DNA of 64,000 bases from Lysobacter sp. yr284. Lineage in GTDB: Bacteria > Pseudomonadota > Gammaproteobacteria > Xanthomonadales > Xanthomonadaceae. Location: the NCBI RefSeq assembly GCF_900107375.1, contig NZ_FNPT01000003.1, forward strand, positions 62,001 through 126,000, written 5' to 3'. The position numbers and the translations under genes were made by a program. The notes beneath the pieces are model-generated. The model saw nothing but the letters and a program-made list of their open reading frames with translations. It did not search any database and was not told where the DNA came from. Positions 2,224 through 14,086 of this stretch are shown in pieces. Numbering within the stretch: the first letter of the stretch is position 1; every line of letters begins with the position of its first letter.

Positions 2224-2703
2224 ATGTTCAGGATGTTCGCGATCAGCCAGGCGCAGCCTTTGCGGGACGCCGCCGCGGGCGCGCGCGCGTGGTGGCTGGC
2301 GGCGGCGCTGCTGGCCCTGGCCGCATGCAGCGGCGGTTCGCCGGAACAACGCCTGCGCGAGTCGATGACGCAACTGCAGGAGGCGATCCAGGCGCGCGAC
2401 GCCAAGGCGGTGCGGGCGCAACTGGCCGACGACTTCGTCGGCCCGCAGGGCCTGGACCGCGAAGGCGCGCGCCGGCTGGCCGCGGCCAGCTTCCTGCGCT
2501 ATCGCGATGTGTGGGTGCGCGTGGCCGCGCCGCGCTACAAGGTCGAGGGCGACCGCGCCACGGTCGAGTTCGAGGCCGCGCTCGGCGGCGGTGGCGGCAG
2601 CGCCCTGCCCGAGGCCGCGCAGCTCTACCAGGTGCGCACCGGCTGGCGCGAGCGCGACGGCGAGTGGCGGATGATTTCGGCGGAGTGGACGCCGCGGTTG
2701 TAG
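2224..2703 (+). CDS. Putative lipoprotein with small NTF2-like domain
   Basis: A 159-residue protein divergent from rpfB. A hydrophobic stretch (about residues 23-34) ends in LAAC, a lipobox, so it is probably lipidated and periplasmic. The mature part starts with a helical region (EQRLRESMTQLQEAIQARDAKAV) and continues to a tryptophan-ending strand (GEWRMISAEWTP). This resembles small SnoaL/NTF2-like proteins that hold a ligand in a cone-shaped pocket; the fold is inferred from pattern only. ATG 2224 was chosen over upstream in-frame starts because it sits behind GAAGGGGA and directly begins a signal sequence. No specific function can be assigned. A 169-base gap separates it from the SWIM gene, so it may be transcribed separately. 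Confidence 0.7.
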   Translation: MFRMFAISQAQPLRDAAAGARAWWLAAALLALAACSGGSPEQRLRESMTQLQEAIQARDAKAVRAQLADDFVGPQGLDREGARRLAAASFLRYRDVWVRVAAPRYKVEGDRATVEFEAALGGGGGSALPEAAQLYQVRTGWRERDGEWRMISAEWTPRL

Positions 2704-2872
2704 CGGCTCGGCGGCGCGCGCGGCGGGCGAACGCGCGCGCGCGCAATCGACGGCGCGCTTGCCGCGTTTGCCCGCTGCGTTTGCCCGCTGCGCAGTGCGC
2801 GTCGCCGGTTGCCCGCTGCTCGGCTATGCTTGCCGGCAACACAAGGACGCTACCGGTGGGGACCGGTTCGCA

Positions 2873-4213
2873 ATGGAATCTGCCCTGACCGCCGAACAGG
2901 CGCTCGCGTTGGCGCCCGACGGCGCTTCGGCCAAGGCCGCCACCGGCCTGGCCTCCGACCGACATTGGCTGAGCCTGGGCGGCGACGCCGAGGCCTTGTG
3001 GGGCGAATGCAAGGGCAGCGGCGCGAAGCCGTACCAGGCCCAGGTCGACCTGAGCGCGCTGGTCACCCGCTGCTCCTGCCCCAGCCGCAAGTTTCCGTGC
3101 AAGCACGCGCTGGCGCTGCTGTTGATGCATGCGCGCGGCGGCATCGCCGCGGATGCGCGGCCGGCCTGGGTCGAGGAATGGCTGAACTCGCGCCGCGACC
3201 GCGCCGAAAAGAAGGAACAGGCCGCGGCCAAGGCCGCCGCTGTGCAGGCGGCCGATCCGGAAACCGCCGCGGCGTCGGCGGCCAAGCGCGAAGCCGCGCG
3301 CTGGAAACGCATCGACCAGGGCAGCGCCGAACTGCAGCGCTGGATCGGCGACCAGTTGCGTCGCGGGCTGGCCTCGTTCGGCGCGCAGCAGCGCGCGGAG
3401 TGGACGGCGATGGCGGCGCGCATGGTCGATGCGCAGGCGCCGGCGTTGTCGGCGCAGTTGCTGGCCGCGACCGAGGCCATGGCCGCCGGCATCGCCGGCG
3501 CGCCGGCGGTGGTCGAGCGCTTCGGCCTGATCTGGCTGCTGCGCGAAGCGGTGGTCCGGCGCGCGTCGTTGTCGCCGCAACGCCTGGCCGACGTGCGCAC
3601 CGCGCTGGGCTGGGTCTACGACAAGGACGATCTGGCCACGCTCGGCGAAAGCGTGGGCGATCGCTGGATCGTGCAGGGCCAGCGCATCGACGAACGCGAC
3701 GACCGTTTGTTCGAGCGCCGGGTGTGGCTGCGCGGGCAGGCCAGCGGCCGCGACGCGCTGCTGCACGACTACGCCTACGGCGGCCGCGGCTGGGAGCAGC
3801 AATGGCTGGACGGGCGCAGCGTCGAGGCGACCCTGCGCTTCTTCCCCGGCAGCGCGCCGCTGCGCGCGCTGGCGCTGGAGCAGGGCGCGGCGCAACCGGC
3901 GCCGCGCTGGTCGCAGCCGGCGGCCGAGGCCATCGACGCGGCATCGCTCGCGTTCGCCGCGAACCCATGGCTGCAATGGTGGCCGCTGGCGCTGGCCGAT
4001 GCGGTGCCGCTGCGCGAGAACGAACGCTGGTGGCTGCACACCCCGGCTGGGCGCGTGCCGCTGGCGCTGGGCGAGGCCGCCGGCTGGAACCTGCTCGCGC
4101 ACAGCGGCGGCCGCGAACTGCAGGTGATGGGCGAATGGGACGGCCGCGAACTGCGGCCGCTGAGCGCATGGCGCGGCGCCGATGCGGCGCACAACTGGAG
4201 CCTGGCGGCATGA
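2873..4213 (+). CDS. SWIM zinc-finger protein (YehQ-like), first gene of MoxR/vWA operon
   Basis: A 446-residue cytoplasmic protein. The SWIM motif CxCx6CxH is intact (C67, C69, C76, H78). SWIM fingers bind zinc and contact DNA or protein. Residues about 100-140 are rich in Lys, Glu and Ala and probably form a helix or coiled coil. The rest is Trp/Leu/Ala-rich without other motifs I recognise. It is the first gene of a five-gene plus-strand operon and overlaps the next gene by 4 bases (ATGA). E. coli carries a SWIM protein, YehQ, in the corresponding yehL-M-P-Q cluster. ATG 2873 was chosen because the SWIM-family N-terminus begins there and upstream sequence is unlike protein. Zinc-finger assignment is firm; cellular role unknown. 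Confidence 0.85.
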   Translation: MESALTAEQALALAPDGASAKAATGLASDRHWLSLGGDAEALWGECKGSGAKPYQAQVDLSALVTRCSCPSRKFPCKHALALLLMHARGGIAADARPAWVEEWLNSRRDRAEKKEQAAAKAAAVQAADPETAAASAAKREAARWKRIDQGSAELQRWIGDQLRRGLASFGAQQRAEWTAMAARMVDAQAPALSAQLLAATEAMAAGIAGAPAVVERFGLIWLLREAVVRRASLSPQRLADVRTALGWVYDKDDLATLGESVGDRWIVQGQRIDERDDRLFERRVWLRGQASGRDALLHDYAYGGRGWEQQWLDGRSVEATLRFFPGSAPLRALALEQGAAQPAPRWSQPAAEAIDAASLAFAANPWLQWWPLALADAVPLRENERWWLHTPAGRVPLALGEAAGWNLLAHSGGRELQVMGEWDGRELRPLSAWRGADAAHNWSLAA

Positions 4214-5775
4214 GCGCGAACCCCGAGCCCGGCGCCGGCGGCGACTGGATCAAGCCGGCCCTGGTCGGCATCGACGGCGCGCGCGCGACGGCGTTTCCTG
4301 CGCCGGTCGGCGAATGGCTCGAACAGATCGACGGCGACGACGCGCTGGCGCGCTACGCCCGCGGCGCCGCGGCGATGGCGGCGTGCCGCCTGGCCGCGGT
4401 CGAGGTCGCGTCGGCCGAGATCGCGCCGCCGCCGGCCGCGCCGGACGACGCGCGCATGATCGGCGAGGGCGAACCGTTGGCGCCGGCGCTGGCCGCGATC
4501 TTCCGCGGCGACAGCGAACGCCTGCACCACGAAGCCTGCCAGCGCCTGGCCGCGCTCGGCCGCGCGCTGCCGGCAGGGGCGCTGGCGTCCGCGCTCGACG
4601 CCGGCCGCCAGCGCGCGCGGCTGCGCCCGCCGCTGCTGCCGGTGCTCGGCGAACGCGGCCTGTGGCTGGCCCGGCTCAATCCGGATTGGCGCTACGCCGA
4701 TCGCGGCGCGGCCGGCGCGGGCGTGGAAGGCCAGAGCGGTGCGGACGACGGCGAATCCGGCGATTCGGCCGACGAAGCCGCGCGCCTGTGGCAGGAAGGC
4801 AGCTTCGAACAGCGCCTGGCCCTGTTCGCGCGGATCCGCGCGGCCGAGCCGGCGCGCGCGCGGCAGATGCTGCAGGCGCAGCTCGGCGAGCTGCCGGCCA
4901 AGGAGCGCGCCGCGTTCGTCGCCGAGTTCGATACCGGGCTGGGCGCGGACGACGAGGCCTTGCTGGCCGGCCTGCTCAAGGACCGCGGGCGCGAAGTGCG
5001 CCGGCTCGCCGCGAGCCTGCTCGCGCGCCTGCCGCAGTCCGCGCACGCGCAGCGATTGATCGCCTGGCTGGCGCCGCTGGTGACCCAGGAACGCGCACTG
5101 CTGCTCAAGCGTTGGACCCTCGACGCGCCGCAGGCCGCCGACCCCGACTGGGCCGCCGCGGCCATCGACGCCGTGCGCCCGCAGAACGACGCGCTCGGCG
5201 AGCGCGCGTGGTGGCTGTATCAACTCGTGCGCCAGGTGCCGCTGCGCTGGTGGCGCGAGCGCACCGGCATGGACGCGGCCGCGCTGCTGGCCTGGGCCGG
5301 CAAGAGCGACTGGAAGCAGGCGCTGCATCGCGGCTGGATCGAGCGCATCCACCGCGACGACGCCGACTGGGCCGAGGCCATGCTCGACGCGCCCGGCCGC
5401 GCCTTCGGCGGCCATCACGGCGAACTGCTGGCGCTGCTGCCGCCGGCGCAGCGCGTGCGCCACTGGCCGCGCAGCTTCGCCGACCTGTGCCGCAGCGGCC
5501 GCATCGACGAAGTGCTCGGCTCCTGCGCGCCGGGGCAGTGGCTGCCGCTGGACTACTCGCGCCTGGTCGGCGCCGGCCTGCAGCAGGCCGGCGACACCCT
5601 GCGCCAGGACTGGAGCTTGCGCCAGAACGCCCAGTCGCTGCTGGAAGCGCTGCACCCGCAGGCCCTGCAGGGCTGGCAGGCGCCGCCGCGCGCGCCCGAC
5701 GACACCCCGGCGCTGGCCGACTGCTTGGCCGGCCTGGAGCGCACCGCGCACCTGCGCCGGCTGCTGCACGCCTGA
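4210..5775 (+). CDS. DUF5691-like helical-repeat protein in MoxR/vWA operon
   Basis: A 521-residue cytoplasmic protein starting at the ATG that overlaps the SWIM stop codon. It begins MSANPEPG and soon reads WIKPALVGIDGAR, which I associate with DUF5691 proteins encoded beside SWIM and MoxR genes. The middle (about residues 190-310) has several leucine/alanine helical pairs, such as RARQMLQAQLGELP and RREVRRLAASLLARLP-like stretches, resembling HEAT repeats. No catalytic motif was seen, so a scaffold or adaptor role is inferred. It is followed after 50 bases by the AAA+ gene. Translational coupling with the SWIM gene suggests fixed stoichiometry. The family name is from memory and should be confirmed by profile search. 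Confidence 0.7.
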   Translation: MSANPEPGAGGDWIKPALVGIDGARATAFPAPVGEWLEQIDGDDALARYARGAAAMAACRLAAVEVASAEIAPPPAAPDDARMIGEGEPLAPALAAIFRGDSERLHHEACQRLAALGRALPAGALASALDAGRQRARLRPPLLPVLGERGLWLARLNPDWRYADRGAAGAGVEGQSGADDGESGDSADEAARLWQEGSFEQRLALFARIRAAEPARARQMLQAQLGELPAKERAAFVAEFDTGLGADDEALLAGLLKDRGREVRRLAASLLARLPQSAHAQRLIAWLAPLVTQERALLLKRWTLDAPQAADPDWAAAAIDAVRPQNDALGERAWWLYQLVRQVPLRWWRERTGMDAAALLAWAGKSDWKQALHRGWIERIHRDDADWAEAMLDAPGRAFGGHHGELLALLPPAQRVRHWPRSFADLCRSGRIDEVLGSCAPGQWLPLDYSRLVGAGLQQAGDTLRQDWSLRQNAQSLLEALHPQALQGWQAPPRAPDDTPALADCLAGLERTAHLRRLLHA

Positions 5776-5825
5776 GCCGCGCAGCCCCGAATATTCGAAT
5801 CAAACCTCATCTACACGGAGTTCCG

Positions 5826-6905
5826 ATGACCGCCGTCCTGCGCCAACACGCCGAAATCCAGTTCGCCGAAGAGCTCGAACAACTGGCCAAGGCCGACGAC
5901 CGCCAGCGTCCCGCCAACTGGAAGCTGTCGCCGTGGGCGGTGGTGACCTACCTGATCGGCGGCAAGCTCGACAACGGTTTCGAGGTCAGCCCCAAGTACA
6001 TCGGCAACCGCCGCTTGATGGAAATCGCGGTGGCCACCGTCGCCACCGACCGCGCGCTGTTGCTGTTCGGCGTGCCGGGCACGGCCAAGTCGTGGGTGTC
6101 CGAGCACCTGAGCGCGGCGATCAGCGGCGATTCGACCATGCTGATCCAGGGCACCGCCGGCACCAGCGAAGAGCAGATCCGCTACGGCTGGAACTACGCG
6201 CAGTTGCTCGCGCACGGCCCGAGCGAGAACGCGCTGGTGCCCAGCCCGATGATGAACGCGATGAAGCTCGGCAAGATCGCCCGGGTCGAGGAACTCACCC
6301 GCATTCCCGCCGACGTCCAGGACACCCTGATCACGGTGCTGTCGGAGAAGACCCTGCCGGTGCCCGAGCTGGGCAGCGAAGTGCAGGCCGCGCGCGGCTT
6401 CAGCGTGATCGCCACCGCCAACAACCGCGACAAGGGCGTCAACGAACTGTCCAGCGCGCTCAAGCGCCGCTTCAACACGGTGATCCTGCCGGTGCCGGCC
6501 AGCGAGGAGGAAGAGGTCTCGATCGTGGTCAAGCGCGTGCACGAACTCGGCCGCGCGCTGGAACTGCCGGCCGAGCCGCCGGCGCTGAAGGAAGTGGCGC
6601 GGATCGTGCGCATCTTCCGCGAACTGCGCAACGGCCAGACCGAGGACGGCAAGTCCAAGCTCAAGACGCCGAGCTCGACCCTGTCCACCGCCGAGGCGAT
6701 CTCGGTGATCAACAACGGCATGGCCCTGGCCGGGCACTTCGGCGACGGCGTGCTGCGTCCGGCCGACATGGCCGCGGGCATGATCGGCGCGGTGGTCAAG
6801 GACCCGGTGCAGGACCAGGTGGTGTGGACGGAGTATCTGGAAACCGTGGTCAAGGAACGCGCCGAGTGGAAGGACCTCTACCGCGCCTTCCGCGAACAGC
6901 TCTGA
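5826..6905 (+). CDS. MoxR-type AAA+ ATPase (YehL-like)
   Basis: A 359-residue AAA+ ATPase. Walker A is GVPGTAKS at 82-89. The Walker B position reads IARVEELTRIP (about 151-161), with EE where DE is usual. Sensor 1 is the ATANN segment (about 196-200). The LKRRFNTVILP segment near 212-222 fits the arginine-finger region. MoxR ATPases are chaperone-like remodellers that act with a vWA protein, often inserting metals or activating enzyme complexes. Here the vWA gene is two genes downstream. E. coli YehL is the likely counterpart. A strong GGAG site precedes ATG 5826. The client protein is unknown. Confidence 0.88.
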   Translation: MTAVLRQHAEIQFAEELEQLAKADDRQRPANWKLSPWAVVTYLIGGKLDNGFEVSPKYIGNRRLMEIAVATVATDRALLLFGVPGTAKSWVSEHLSAAISGDSTMLIQGTAGTSEEQIRYGWNYAQLLAHGPSENALVPSPMMNAMKLGKIARVEELTRIPADVQDTLITVLSEKTLPVPELGSEVQAARGFSVIATANNRDKGVNELSSALKRRFNTVILPVPASEEEEVSIVVKRVHELGRALELPAEPPALKEVARIVRIFRELRNGQTEDGKSKLKTPSSTLSTAEAISVINNGMALAGHFGDGVLRPADMAAGMIGAVVKDPVQDQVVWTEYLETVVKERAEWKDLYRAFREQL

Positions 6906-6912
6906 GCCGCGC

Positions 6913-9336
6913 ATGAGCGCCACGCTCGGTTACTTCGGCATCCGCCACCACGGCCCGGGCTGCGCGCGCAGCCTGCGCAAGGCGCTGGACGCGCTGCGCC
7001 CGGACTGCGTGCTGATCGAGGGCCCGGCTGGTGCCGAGGCCCTGGTCGAGCACCTGCGCGACGCGCAACTGCAGCCGCCGGTGGCGCTGCTGTCCTATGG
7101 CGTCGACGATCCGCAACTGGCCGTGTTCCATCCCTACGCCGAGTTCTCGCCCGAGTGGCAGGCGATGCGCTGGGCGGTGGAGCACGGCGCGACGGTGCGC
7201 TTCATCGACGTGCCGGCCGGGGCCAGCCTGGCCTGGCAGCGGGCGCGGCGCGAACGCTTGGCGGGCGATGCGGCCGCGCAGACGCAAGCGGGCGAGGGCG
7301 AGGCGCCGTCGCCGCAGGAACTCGCCGACGACGCGGCGCGCGCCGAGGCCCCTGCGGCGCCGCAGACGGCCGGTGAAGACGCCGCCGAATCCGCGTCCGC
7401 ACACCCGGCCGACGACGCCGGCAGCGACGCCAGCGCCGCGACCGCCGACGCCGAGCGCCACGCCGAGCACCGCGATCCGCTCGACTGGCTCGCCCACGCC
7501 GCCGGCTACGCCGACGGCGAGAGCTGGTGGAACCACATGGTCGAGGAACGCGGCGACGGCGAAGGCCTGTTCGAGGCGATCGCCGCGGCCATGGGCGAAC
7601 TGCGCGACCACGCCGAGCTGCGCAACGGCCTGGATCCGCACGAGGAAGCGCTGCGCGAGGCGCACATGCGCAGCGGCATCCGCGACGCGATCAAGCAGGG
7701 CTTCGAGCGCATCGCCGTGGTCTGCGGCGCCTGGCACGTGCCGGCGCTGGCCGGCAAGGCCACCGCCGCGGCCGACAAGGCCCTGCTCAAGGACTTGCCC
7801 AAGCTCAAGGCCGCCGCGACCTGGGTGCCGTGGACGTACCGGCACCTGAGCAGCGCCAGCGGTTACGGCGCCGGCATCGATTCGCCGGGCTGGTACGAAC
7901 ACCTGTGGCGGCACGGCGGCAGCCAGGGCCGCACGGTCGGCTGGTTCGCAAGGGTCGCGCGGGTGCTGCGCGAACACGCGCTGGACTGCTCCTCCGCGCA
8001 CCTGATCGAAGCCACGCGCCTGGCCGACACCCTGGCCGCATTGCGCGACCGGCCGGCGCCGAGCCTGGAGGAACTCAACCAGGCCACCTTGAGCATCCTG
8101 TGCAACGGCGACGACGCGCCGATGCGGCTGATCGAGCAGGCGCTGATGATCGGCGAGCGGATCGGCTCGGTGCCCGAAGCGGTGCCCACGGTGCCGCTGC
8201 AGCGCGACCTGGAAGCCCAGCGCAAGCGCCTGCGGCTCAAGGCCGAAGCGTTGAGCAAGCCGCTGGAACTGGACCTGCGCAACGACACCGACCTGCAGCG
8301 CAGCGAACTACTGCACCGGCTGCTGCTGCTCGACATCGGCTGGGGCCGCCTCGGCGGCGCCGGGCGTTCGCGCGGCAGCTTCCGCGAAGTGTGGGAACTG
8401 GCCTGGCAGCCGGGTTTCGAGATCGAGCTGATCGTCGCCAGCCGCTACGGCCAGACGGTGGCGCAGGCCGCGACCGCGCGCGCGATCGAATCCGCGCGCC
8501 GGGCCGAGCGCTTGCCGGACCTCTCGCGCCTGATCGACCGGGTGCTGCTGGCGAACCTGCCCGATGCGGTGCAGGCGGTGGCGGCCGAACTGCAGGCGCG
8601 CGCCGCGGTCGACGCCGATCCGCTGTCGCTGCTGGCGGCGCTGCCGGCGCTGGCCAACGTGCAGCGCTACGGCAACGTGCGCAATACCGATGCGGCGCAG
8701 GTGCGGCACCTGTTCGACGGCATGCTCGCGCGCGCCTGCATCGGCCTGACCATCGCCCTGGGCGGGCTCGACGAAGAGGCCGCCGGCGACGCGCGCGAGA
8801 CTTTGCTCGCCGCCGACCGCGCCGTGGCGCTGCGCGAGGACGACGCCCAGACCGCGACCTGGCGCGGCGCCCTGCGCCAACTCGCGCTGGCGCTGAGCGC
8901 CACGCCGCTGCTGCGCGGCGTGGCCACGCGCCTGCTGTTCGACGCCGGCGGCTTCGACGGCGAAGCGGTGGCGCGCGAGCTGGGCCTGAACCTGTCGCTC
9001 GGCGCCGAGCCGCTGGACGCGGCGCACTGGCTGGACGGCTTCCTCAACCGCAACGCCGCGGTGCTGCTGCACGACGACGCGGTGTGGGGATTGATCGACG
9101 CTTGGGTCTCGAACCTGGGCCACGAGCATTTCCTGCGCGTGGTGCCGTTGTTGCGGCGCAGCTTCGCCGAGTTCGAGGCCGCCGACCGGCGCGACCTCGG
9201 CCAGCGGGTCAAGCGCCCGCCGGGCGCGGCGCCGGCATCGGCGGCGCGATCGTCCTGGGACGCCGCCCGCGCGGCGCGTGCGCTGCCGTTGCTGCGCGAA
9301 CTGTTCGGCCTCGAGCCTATGGGAGATGCGCGATGA
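6913..9336 (+). CDS. DUF5682-like protein (YehM-like)
   Basis: An 807-residue cytoplasmic protein 7 bases after the AAA+ gene. The N-terminus carries IRHHGPG (10-16) and LIEGP (34-38); a further CGAWH motif ends at His 275. These spaced His/Glu motifs recall the EreA/ChaN/TraB group of hydrolases, but that link is my inference. A low-complexity Ala/Asp/Glu/Pro stretch (about 118-178) interrupts the N-terminal part and looks like a flexible insertion. The remainder is helical. The length is close to E. coli YehM, which sits in the same kind of cluster. The stop overlaps the start of the vWA gene (ATGA). No function is established for this family as far as I know. Confidence 0.78.
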   Translation: MSATLGYFGIRHHGPGCARSLRKALDALRPDCVLIEGPAGAEALVEHLRDAQLQPPVALLSYGVDDPQLAVFHPYAEFSPEWQAMRWAVEHGATVRFIDVPAGASLAWQRARRERLAGDAAAQTQAGEGEAPSPQELADDAARAEAPAAPQTAGEDAAESASAHPADDAGSDASAATADAERHAEHRDPLDWLAHAAGYADGESWWNHMVEERGDGEGLFEAIAAAMGELRDHAELRNGLDPHEEALREAHMRSGIRDAIKQGFERIAVVCGAWHVPALAGKATAAADKALLKDLPKLKAAATWVPWTYRHLSSASGYGAGIDSPGWYEHLWRHGGSQGRTVGWFARVARVLREHALDCSSAHLIEATRLADTLAALRDRPAPSLEELNQATLSILCNGDDAPMRLIEQALMIGERIGSVPEAVPTVPLQRDLEAQRKRLRLKAEALSKPLELDLRNDTDLQRSELLHRLLLLDIGWGRLGGAGRSRGSFREVWELAWQPGFEIELIVASRYGQTVAQAATARAIESARRAERLPDLSRLIDRVLLANLPDAVQAVAAELQARAAVDADPLSLLAALPALANVQRYGNVRNTDAAQVRHLFDGMLARACIGLTIALGGLDEEAAGDARETLLAADRAVALREDDAQTATWRGALRQLALALSATPLLRGVATRLLFDAGGFDGEAVARELGLNLSLGAEPLDAAHWLDGFLNRNAAVLLHDDAVWGLIDAWVSNLGHEHFLRVVPLLRRSFAEFEAADRRDLGQRVKRPPGAAPASAARSSWDAARAARALPLLRELFGLEPMGDAR

Positions 9337-10547
9337 GCGCGGCTACGGACAACGCCGATACCGGCCTGCCCAGCGATGCGGCGACGCCGAGCACGCGCGA
9401 GGAGCGCTGGCGCATGGTCCTGGGCAGCGAAGCCCAGGACAGCTGCGGCGCGCTCGGCGCGGGCCTGTCGCCGATGGACGCGGCCCTGGCCGCGCTGTAC
9501 GAACCCAGCGGTCCGGGCGGCCTGTCGCGGCGCGGCGGCCGCGGCGGTTCGGCGCCGAACGTGGCGCGCTGGCTCGGCGACATCCGCAAGTACTTCCCGA
9601 CCAGCGTGGTCCAGGTGATGCAGCGCGACGCCCTGCAGCGCCTGGACCTGCGCCAGATGCTGCTGGAAAAGGAGATGCTCGAGGGCATCCAGCCCGACGT
9701 GCACATGGTCGCCAACCTGGTGTCGCTGTCGGGCGTGATCCCGGCCGAGACCAAGCAGACCGCGCGCATGGTGGTGCGGCGCGTGGTCGAGGAACTGATG
9801 CGCAAGCTCGAAGAGCCGATGCGCTCGGCGGTGACCGGCGCGCTCGACCGCGCCCGCCGCACCCGGCGGCCGCGCCACGCCGAGATCGACTGGAACCGCA
9901 CCATCCGCGCCAACCTCAAGCATTGGCAGCCCGAGTACAAGACCGTGATCCCGCAGCAGCTGATCGGCTTCGGCCGCAAGTCGCGGCGGCCGCAGCGCGA
10001 GATCACCCTGTGCATCGACCAAAGCGGCTCGATGGCGGCCTCGGTGGTGTATTCGAGCATCTTCGGCGCGGTGATGGCCTCGCTGCCGGCGGTATCGACC
10101 CGGCTGGTGGTGTTCGACACCGCGGTGGTCGACATGACCGAGCAACTCGACGACCCGGTCGACCTGCTGTTCGGCGTGCAGCTCGGCGGCGGCACCGACA
10201 TCCACGGCGCGGTGGCCTATTGCCAGGGCCTGATCCGCGAGCCGCGCAACAGCATCCTGGTGCTGATCTCGGACCTGTACGAAGGCGGGGTCGAGGCCAA
10301 GCTGCTGGCGCGCGCGCAGGAATTGGTCGAGGCCGGCGTGCAGTTCATCGTGCTGCTGGCGCTCAGCGACGAAGGCCGCCCGGCCTACGATCAAGCGCTG
10401 GCGGCGAAGCTGGCGGCGCTGGGCGTGCCTTCGTTCGCGTGCACGCCGGATGCGTTTCCGGGATTGATGGCGGCGGCGATTCGCCGCGACGACGTCAACC
10501 AGTGGGCGGCGGGGAACGGGTTGGTGCCGACGCGGGCGGAGGGGTAG
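9333..10547 (+). CDS. von Willebrand factor A domain protein (YehP/CoxE-like), MoxR partner
   Basis: A 404-residue protein. A helical N-terminal half (about 1-215) is followed by a C-terminal vWA domain. All metal-ion-dependent adhesion site residues are present: DQSGS (D229, S231, S233), T288 in GGGTDI and D314 in LISDLYEGG. It should therefore bind a divalent cation and a partner protein. CoxE- and YehP-type vWA proteins work with MoxR ATPases, and the genes here are in one operon. ATG 9333 overlaps the DUF5682 stop. No signal peptide is seen, so it is cytoplasmic. The operon ends here: the next gene is convergent after 33 bases. Confidence 0.87.
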   Translation: MSAATDNADTGLPSDAATPSTREERWRMVLGSEAQDSCGALGAGLSPMDAALAALYEPSGPGGLSRRGGRGGSAPNVARWLGDIRKYFPTSVVQVMQRDALQRLDLRQMLLEKEMLEGIQPDVHMVANLVSLSGVIPAETKQTARMVVRRVVEELMRKLEEPMRSAVTGALDRARRTRRPRHAEIDWNRTIRANLKHWQPEYKTVIPQQLIGFGRKSRRPQREITLCIDQSGSMAASVVYSSIFGAVMASLPAVSTRLVVFDTAVVDMTEQLDDPVDLLFGVQLGGGTDIHGAVAYCQGLIREPRNSILVLISDLYEGGVEAKLLARAQELVEAGVQFIVLLALSDEGRPAYDQALAAKLAALGVPSFACTPDAFPGLMAAAIRRDDVNQWAAGNGLVPTRAEG

Positions 10548-10580
10548 GGCGCGAGCGTGCGCTCGCCGCGCCGCGCGCGC

Positions 10581-11006
10581 TCAGCGCGGCGCCAGCGCGG
10601 TGCAGTCGTCCCAGCGAATCACGGTGGTGCACTCGCCGTTCTCGCAGGACCCACTGCGGCGCGAACTGAGCGCGCAAAACTCGAAAGCGCCGTCGTCGGT
10701 CGCGATGCGGCCGTAGTAATGCGGCCCCACGCGCATGTGCTTGCGCAGCCGGTACCAGCCTTCTTCTGCGGAGCCGTTGCCGTCCTCGCTGGACCTGGCG
10801 TAGCGCAGATGGCCGTCCGCGCGTGCCTGCGTGCTCTTTTCCAGCCAGCCTGCGCGCAGTTGCGCGGTTGCGTGCTGCAATTCGATTTCGACCACGCCGG
10901 CGGTGCGGCCGTACCAACGGCTGTTGCGGTCGCGCTCCGCGCTGCCGGCGCAGGCGGCCAGGGTGAGGCAGAGCGCACCGGCAGAAGCGATGGAACGAAA
11001 CAGCAT
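10581..11006 (-). CDS. Putative small lipoprotein
   Basis: A 141-residue protein whose N-terminal hydrophobic segment ends in the lipobox LAAC (Cys 19), so it is probably a lipid-anchored periplasmic protein. The mature part has further cysteines near the C-terminus (CALSS, SCENGEC, DDC), which may form disulfides. GGAG precedes the ATG at 11006. It is convergent with the vWA gene and lies downstream of acnA on the same strand, with repeats in between. No family was recognised. Confidence 0.65.
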   Translation of the reverse strand: MLFRSIASAGALCLTLAACAGSAERDRNSRWYGRTAGVVEIELQHATAQLRAGWLEKSTQARADGHLRYARSSEDGNGSAEEGWYRLRKHMRVGPHYYGRIATDDGAFEFCALSSRRSGSCENGECTTVIRWDDCTALAPR

Positions 11007-11169
11007 GCGGCGGCTCCATGTCGGCGGCGCTGCAGGCGCCGTCCGTTTGCCTCAAGCGGGAGAGGATCCTGCGAGAGGGTAAGCGAGTCGGCCAGTGGAG
11101 GCCATCACCAGCCCCGCCCCGGCCCGAACGCATAGCGTTCGGGCGACCGGGTCCGCGCGAGCCAATGGC

Positions 11170-11300
11170 TCGCAGCGCGGCCCCTCACCCCGCAAGCGGG
11201 AGAGGGGCCCAAGCAGCAGCGTCGTGAGCCGTTCCTTCTCCCGTTTACGGGAGAAGGCGCCCGAAGGGCCTGCCCCTGCGAAGGCAGGGGCGGATGAGGG
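11170..11300. repeat. Composite palindromic intergenic repeat downstream of acnA
   Basis: The gap between acnA and the lipoprotein gene holds stacked palindromes: a 10-bp stem with TTTA loop (11234-11243 with 11248-11257), then an 8-bp GCCCCTGC stem starting at about 11272. A related half-copy (CAAGCGGGAGAGG) is near 11055. It resembles the GC-rich REP-like elements scattered in Xanthomonadaceae genomes. It may also end acnA transcription, since no standard terminator is visible. Confidence 0.6.
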
Positions 11301-11317
11301 CAGCGCGAAGCCGCCTG

Positions 11318-14086
<2,769 letters not shown>

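Follow-up and report, generated by a model that had tools for sequence, protein, structure and literature searches.

Do five genes that lie consecutively at one locus of Lysobacter sp. yr284 encode a single machine, and what might that machine do? The locus is part of a 64,000-nucleotide stretch of the genome (contig NZ_FNPT01000003.1, positions 62,001 to 126,000 of the forward strand), which we call the window. Its genes encode, in order, a SWIM zinc-finger protein, a DUF5691 protein, a MoxR AAA+ ATPase, a DUF5682 protein and a CoxE-type von Willebrand factor A (vWA) protein. A preliminary description of the sequence had read them as one operon whose products form a complex, with the ATPase and the vWA protein loading or activating the DUF5682 protein. 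We find that the five genes form a real, widespread and coherent unit, a conclusion that is well supported, and that this unit exists in two types with different companion genes.

The five genes form a conserved unit

We used an alignment of 16 DUF5682 proteins (A1) as the query for relatives of DUF5682, and took the best 80 of at least 577 stretches as named loci, using a DNA pattern for [FVA][GP][IV]RHH[SG]P[AG][CS] together with top scores. Because they were chosen by motif and score, the 80 loci favour the type found in the window (type A). All five genes were detected separately in 65 loci, a family that matched two open frames in one locus being omitted for that locus. The order is SWIM-DUF5691-MoxR-DUF5682-vWA, on a single strand, in 64 loci; in L105 the vWA gene comes first. 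Among the 15 other loci, L060 has the SWIM and DUF5691 genes fused, three (L078, L100 and L116) have all five genes with one split across two open frames, and six (L066, L072, L074, L092, L096 and L109) are truncated by contig ends, L072 also lacking the vWA gene despite sufficient room. The distance from the DUF5682 gene to the vWA gene has an estimated median of -4 bases across 86 loci, with gene starts themselves estimated. Judging by record titles and general taxonomy, the 80 loci represent Pseudomonadota, Desulfovibrionaceae, Cyanobacteria, Chloroflexota, Planctomycetota, Verrucomicrobiota, Acidobacteriota, Armatimonadota and one metagenome-assembled genome (MAG) labelled Actinomycetota.

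We also searched 348 genomes, drawn evenly from the source phylum, with Pfam models. DUF5682 was found in 14 genomes and DUF5691 above cut-off in seven, all of them within those 14, and the five genes are clustered in every one of the seven. Weak matches in two genomes, G204 (C1:3523518) and G009, were dropped as under the cut-off (19.3 bits each). Rare co-occurrence in other genomes, which would speak against a single machine, is thus clearly not what these surveys return.

Two types of the unit differ in their companion gene

The eight remaining DUF5682 copies of the 348-genome survey, together with the E. coli K-12 locus, are without DUF5691 and make up a second type (type B). These loci encode MoxR, DUF5682 and vWA proteins and a longer SWIM protein, YehQ. 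YehQ was seen in seven of the nine loci and the vWA protein in eight, subunits being unseen only at L037 (contig end) and L039 (where the examined stretch ends inside the vWA gene). In all nine, the core has next to it or inside it a gene of the WGR/DUF4132 group, although at L037 the contig ends after the first 102 residues of this gene's product; this cluster has no member in type A loci. DUF4132 was found in 10 of the 348 genomes, including all eight type B genomes. The genome of the window itself gave no DUF4132 match, so that the companion characteristic of the E. coli type is missing there, and DUF5691 is present instead. In trees of the MoxR, DUF5682 and vWA proteins, for which minimum sequence lengths were applied, the two types are split on one branch each (support 1.0, 1.0 and 0.999, respectively). 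Since the two SWIM proteins also match each other by profile over their bodies (hhalign probability 87%), four subunits are common to both types and one is exchanged.

We detected no kinship between DUF5691 and DUF4132. When eight DUF4132 partners were scanned, HEAT_2 was above cut-off in three and weak in a fourth; these matches and the helical model of DUF5691 (see below) suggest that both are likely helical-repeat proteins. An N-terminal WGR domain is present in two of the eight partners, as would suit a machine for stress or for the repair of damaged nucleic acids, in which SWIM, and WGR in the sister type, would recognise damaged DNA or bound proteins for remodelling by the ATPase. WGR is missing from the other six partners, including E. 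coli YehI, we found no Pfam match to WGR among the window proteins, and SWIM domains also bind proteins; the part in nucleic-acid recognition that the preliminary description had offered for SWIM found no support here. A passage in PMC8533742 reports that Deinococcus radiodurans dr2173 (WGR) and the drA0165-drA0166 operon (DUF4132) are upregulated upon loss of the DdrO repressor, and describes E. coli MolR as a member of the LexA regulon; however, the Deinococcus genes were not placed beside core genes here, and they offer a lead for type B only. We consider a repair function rather improbable.

The relationship with the E. coli yeh set that the preliminary description had suspected was upheld. 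The window MoxR protein is 40% identical to YehL over 357 columns (BLASTP, E 7e-79) and is encoded beside DUF5682, CoxE-type vWA and SWIM genes, which places it in the YehL class; the vWA proteins are 36% identical, and the DUF5682 proteins belong to the same Pfam family. The two SWIM proteins have no BLAST similarity, their kinship being visible by profile. In the E. coli operon (yehI-yehL-yehM-yehP-yehQ), DUF4132 (YehI) replaces the DUF5691 of the window, the small yehK lies between yehI and yehL, and the SWIM gene comes last, its protein being longer than that of the window and having two finger-like motifs. The DUF4132 partner and its exchange for DUF5691 had gone unnoticed in the preliminary description, as had the TIKI/TraB/ChaN-like domain described below. 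We conclude from these sequence comparisons that the window operon and the yeh operon of E. coli K-12 are sister types of one uncharacterised system. YehL is one of seven MoxR subfamilies listed in a passage of PMC3893208. No function for YehL, DUF5682 or DUF5691 appeared among the literature matches listed, which is not proof of absence; a search by the names and Pfam accessions of DUF5682 and DUF5691 found no paper, and the passages of the literature that name two or more yeh genes give no function.

A second draw comprised 99 genomes of the source taxonomic family, nine genomes with matches under the cut-off being left out. Five DUF5682 matches were above cut-off, three at 800-838 bits (type A, including the window) and two at 333-339 bits (type B). 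The companion that we expected from the DUF5682 score was correct in all four new loci, an expectation formed before reading and unrecorded; at one of the four, L185, the YehQ match is weak. We also hand-picked 12 plasmid loci from 36 and 40 records with matches. DUF5691 is present in six of these loci and DUF4132 in four; none has both, and two (L202 and L207) have neither.

Several loci have further peculiarities. On a Streptomyces cadmiisoli plasmid (L202:6856-12926), the vWA gene precedes the MoxR gene and the DUF5682 frame is weak; this set is perhaps a third type. In Fusobacterium (L207:6062-7975), a 638-residue frame without a DUF5691 profile match occupies the place of DUF5691. An unverified, phage-labelled faecal scaffold (L196:166-12721) carries MoxR, DUF5682 and vWA genes and, farther on, DUF5717 and DUF5716 genes; the scaffold is probably bacterial and perhaps represents another variant. 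Types A and B co-exist in genome G171 (L028 and L032), where the type B locus has three consecutive DUF4132 matches.

Motifs of the SWIM, MoxR and vWA proteins are conserved, and DUF5691 is modelled as helical

The SWIM finger, CSCPSRKFPCKH, occupies residues 67-78 of the 446-residue protein, and its Cys and His residues do not vary across 51 sequences. The vWA metal site consists of DQSGS (residue 229), GGGTD (285) and ISDLYEGG (312); by pattern matching, DxSGS is present in 87 of 88 sequences and the whole metal ion-dependent adhesion site (MIDAS) in 85 of 88. These residue positions confirm the intact finger and complete metal site noted earlier, and the label of helical-repeat protein given to DUF5691 fits its AlphaFold2 (AF2) model, which is almost entirely helix with one hairpin (predicted local distance difference test score, pLDDT, 89.3). 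The MoxR protein has a Walker A motif, GVPGTAKS, at residue 82. In Walker B, Asp-Glu is the usual pair among MoxR proteins. The corresponding region here, KIARVEELTR, has Glu-Glu, as do 86 of the 91 MoxR sequences of the set (pattern match); we take Glu-Glu to be a trait of this MoxR set, correcting the expected Asp-Glu.

The DUF5682 protein may contain a TIKI/TraB/ChaN-like domain

Profile matches to TraB and ChaN point to a candidate TIKI/TraB/ChaN-like domain at the N-terminus of the DUF5682 protein (residues 1 to about 310), followed by a C-terminal helical part; the AF2 model of the protein has a pLDDT of 88.8 and a predicted template modelling score of 0.86. Four residues of the first motif, R11, H12, H13 and P15, are unvarying in the 16 A1 sequences, which were gathered by Pfam independently of the motif. 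Among 32 N-terminal domains, His12, Glu36, Arg248, Gly272 and His275 are unvarying, while some type B sequences have Pro in place of Gly9; Glu36 is at least 90% conserved across 64 sequences. RExxM and G[AG][WFY]H are each present in 95 of 95 sequences, as is RHHxP, which was partly built in by the motif-based choice of loci; the relative in L196, outside that selection, has RHL.

We compared the N-terminal domain with the ChaN (Cofac_haem_bdg in Pfam) and TraB families using hhalign. The score against ChaN was 38.3, and 150 column shuffles reached at most 23.8. For TraB the score was 38.0 with the full alignment and 30.5 after gap-trimming (shuffle maximum 22.6). Both full alignments pair the GxxH His, the Glu and the final GxxH; the Arg of DUF5682 is paired with Arg in TraB, and with Trp or Arg in the same column of ChaN. 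The domain thus has in common with TIKI/TraB/ChaN a GxxH-type His, a second-strand Glu, an Arg and the final GxxH; it differs in the long C-terminal helical part that follows it and in lacking the first of the two Glu residues in the 2His/2Glu set. We take this as a hint that DUF5682 has an N-terminal domain similar to those of the TIKI/TraB/ChaN superfamily.

A candidate mechanism and its alternatives

Natural fusions suggest which subunits touch. Among 111 loci examined, SWIM and DUF5691 form a single open frame in a Hydrogenophaga MAG (L060), Hymenobacter (L195) and Nocardia (L200), representing three phyla. DUF5682 and vWA form a single 1255-residue protein in Streptomyces atratus (L203), and this fusion is fully covered in one piece by four more Streptomyces plasmids at 96-99.8% identity.

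NorQ/NorD and CbbQ/CbbO, like the window set, combine MoxR with a vWA protein that has an intact MIDAS. According to passages in PMC13036017, the vWA protein of NorQ/NorD inserts a finger into the MoxR ring, ATP use remodels a NorD linker required for inserting metal into the client, and the NorQ motif GRxLL/IxxxxT sits in the helix-2 insert; a passage in PMC9976466 proposes that NorD binds its client via the MIDAS. The window set differs in belonging to another MoxR subfamily, in having three extra subunits and in that its client is not known.

By analogy with NorQ/NorD, we tentatively propose, at a little less than an even chance, that the five products are one ATP-driven remodelling machine in which DUF5682 is the client of MoxR and vWA, and SWIM is part of an arm for targets. 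MoxR would assemble as a ring, on which the vWA protein would dock while gripping DUF5682; this grip is modelled on NorD, and the DUF5682-vWA fusion fits it. The client, encoded in the same operon, would present a His/Glu/Arg/His site in its TIKI/TraB/ChaN-like domain, followed by the helical tail. ATP-driven motion of the NorQ/NorD kind might open this site such that a metal or cofactor enters, or might switch the protein on. SWIM and DUF5691 could form a second arm for target recognition, a role that the longer SWIM protein and DUF4132 would have in the sister type. As to the earlier suggestion that the ATPase and vWA protein load or activate DUF5682, the natural fusion favours the partnership, and the loading is argued from analogy. 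Support is good for the unit and its modular plan, and not for the mechanism. We regard as doubtful the more specific version, an ATP-gated machine whose MoxR/vWA motor is dedicated to a TIKI/TraB-like metalloenzyme (DUF5682), with exchangeable SWIM plus DUF5691 or SWIM plus DUF4132 arms, the latter with or without WGR. If it is true, recognition arms would aim one motor-enzyme core at different targets; we know of no earlier MoxR system with a TIKI-fold enzyme client and a modular target arm. An operon of unknown function can thereby yield testable claims about subunit contacts, residues to change and the partner that defines the type; they come from the common core with its alternative partners (DUF5691 or DUF4132), from the fusions and from the His/Glu/Arg/His site that we predict.

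Several findings weigh against the proposed machine. Five loci (L091, L094, L098, L099 and L107) are without some subunits although sequence room sufficed, and L202 is without SWIM, DUF5691 or DUF4132 by profile. The fused genes are neighbours, and hence the fusions are supportive rather than decisive. The top PDB matches of MoxR are midasins (1.1e-12) rather than NorQ (3.9e-5), and the NorQ motif GRxLL/I, read by eye, is missing from the window protein. The hhalign probabilities for DUF5682 are moderate (53-62%), that for TraB dropping to 17% over 41 columns once gap-trimmed; Foldseek with the DUF5682 model gave no match at E <= 0.001, and a search of PDB sequences gave no significant match. 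DUF5682 does not have the full 2His/2Glu catalytic set of Ere/RRSP described in a passage of PMC6254334, the first Glu being Ile or Val in the 32 N-terminal domains, and its site may therefore bind something without catalysis. Lastly, we saw no report of an interaction, ATPase activity or enzyme activity of these proteins among the literature matches listed.

The loss of the first Glu, and the fact that ChaN surpasses TraB as a profile match when gap-trimmed, would also suit a machine that serves a client encoded elsewhere, such as a respiratory complex or one associated with DNA. In that case DUF5682, DUF5691 and SWIM would be adaptors, with the TIKI-like domain a non-catalytic binding module as in ChaN. 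The respiratory complexes served by RavA-ViaA are encoded away from ravA-viaA. RavA-ViaA acts on such complexes (passages of PMC3893208; PMC10585395). However, the other motif positions of DUF5682 are invariant or nearly so, which is strong conservation if the protein is just a scaffold. Most loci also share one gene order, and the clusters examined include no additional family that is prominent beside type A. We judge a client encoded elsewhere to be unlikely, and retain DUF5682 as the candidate client.

Distribution, mobility and a possible conflict role

Three same-genus genomes (G412, G457 and G484) have the operon's flanking genes next to one another, with no operon gene between them by tblastn. 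These flanking genes are aconitase-like (putative, by our own reading), small lipoprotein-like and AMP-binding. G484 has a type B set at another site, and in L. enzymogenes (L043) the operon is at the same place as in the window. The operon-free sites, together with the L043 copy, indicate that all the genes of the set were acquired or lost together there.

Such patchy occurrence, even inside one genus, is a feature expected of an anti-phage or other conflict system, and MoxR-vWA pairs akin to conflict systems are described in passages of Kaur et al. 2020 (PMC7159879). The ternary systems of that paper have the MoxR and vWA core in common with the window set; however, the window MoxR scored 22.2 bits against bpMoxR, below the cut-off of 27, and none of the listed third components was matched by Pfam. 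Among 72,556 plasmid records, 36 contain DUF5682 relatives, and several of these 36 are as large as chromosomes; a type I restriction gene is located 0.5 kb from one of the plasmid copies. With PADLOC (PADLOC-DB of 2023), the sole matches among the five proteins were to two IetA models, covering 34 residues of the ATPase at E 0.003, which is no convincing defence match. Among 111 flank proteins, compared with PADLOC families and no control set, mad3, mad8 and AriA had three matches each, no family had more, and reverse transcriptase, Cas1, AbiD, PtuA and others had single matches. We confirmed no relative in viral contigs by a search that was limited by its pattern. The conflict role raised in the preliminary description thus found no support, and we hold it to be improbable.

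Some plasmid copies have features of their own. An Iodobacter plasmid (L205:152-17053) has a type B set with the YehQ-like region in two frames, two transposase genes upstream and type I restriction genes following. On a Methylosinus plasmid (L206:11244-12469), the vWA region consists of three overlapping short frames, and so the gene looks broken there. The conjugative IncF plasmid NZ_CP103756.1 of E. coli (L208) carries yehI, the yehL-Q genes, yehR and btsR/btsS near an IS26 transposase gene; the stretch is apparently a copy of the E. coli chromosomal region. According to a passage in PMC9334617, a resistance transposon is inserted in the metG/DUF4132/yeh region of 184 E. coli ST131 isolates, which hints that the region is dispensable there. 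The genome-reduced laboratory strain E. coli DGF-298 has, according to a passage in PMC10652928, a 29 kb deletion that includes yehI to yehQ.

Layout of the locus

The five consecutive genes, identified by open reading frames and Pfam matches, occupy positions 2873-10547 of the window on the forward strand, laid out exactly as first described. The SWIM and DUF5691 genes overlap by four bases (4210-4213), as do the DUF5682 and vWA genes (9333-9336); gaps of 50 bases and 7 bases separate DUF5691 from MoxR and MoxR from DUF5682, respectively.

Table 1. Genes and DUF5682 motifs of the operon (positions in the window)
Feature	Positions	Strand	Evidence
SWIM zinc-finger protein, 446 aa	2873..4213	+	Pfam SWIM 9.7e-8
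DUF5691 helical-repeat protein, 521 aa	4210..5775	+	Pfam DUF5691 5.7e-106
MoxR AAA+ ATPase, 359 aa	5826..6905	+	Pfam AAA_5 4.8e-37; BLASTP to YehL 40% identity
DUF5682 protein, 807 aa	6913..9336	+	Pfam DUF5682 3.4e-252
CoxE-type vWA protein, 404 aa	9333..10547	+	Pfam VWA_CoxE 1.4e-52; MIDAS residues complete
DUF5682 motif GIRHHGP (His12)	6937..6957	+	His12 aligned to His of GxxH in TraB and ChaN
DUF5682 motif IEGP (Glu36)	7015..7026	+	Conservation across N-terminal domains
DUF5682 motif REAHM (Arg248)	7654..7668	+	RExxM conservation
DUF5682 motif GAWH (His275)	7726..7737	+	G[AG][WFY]H conservation

The G+C content is 73.1% for the operon and 70.5% for the window. A simple scan of positions 2600-11320 found no sigma-70-like promoter, and a count of terminator-like sites not above that of shuffles; both are little informative at 73% G+C. 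A small lipoprotein-like frame lies 3' of the operon (10581-11006), and had no tblastn match (E 1e-8) in L043 or the three operon-free sites of the same genus. The closest named relative of the DUF5682 protein is from Lysobacter enzymogenes, with 87% identity in the best segment, the protein's own record possibly having been omitted from the search.

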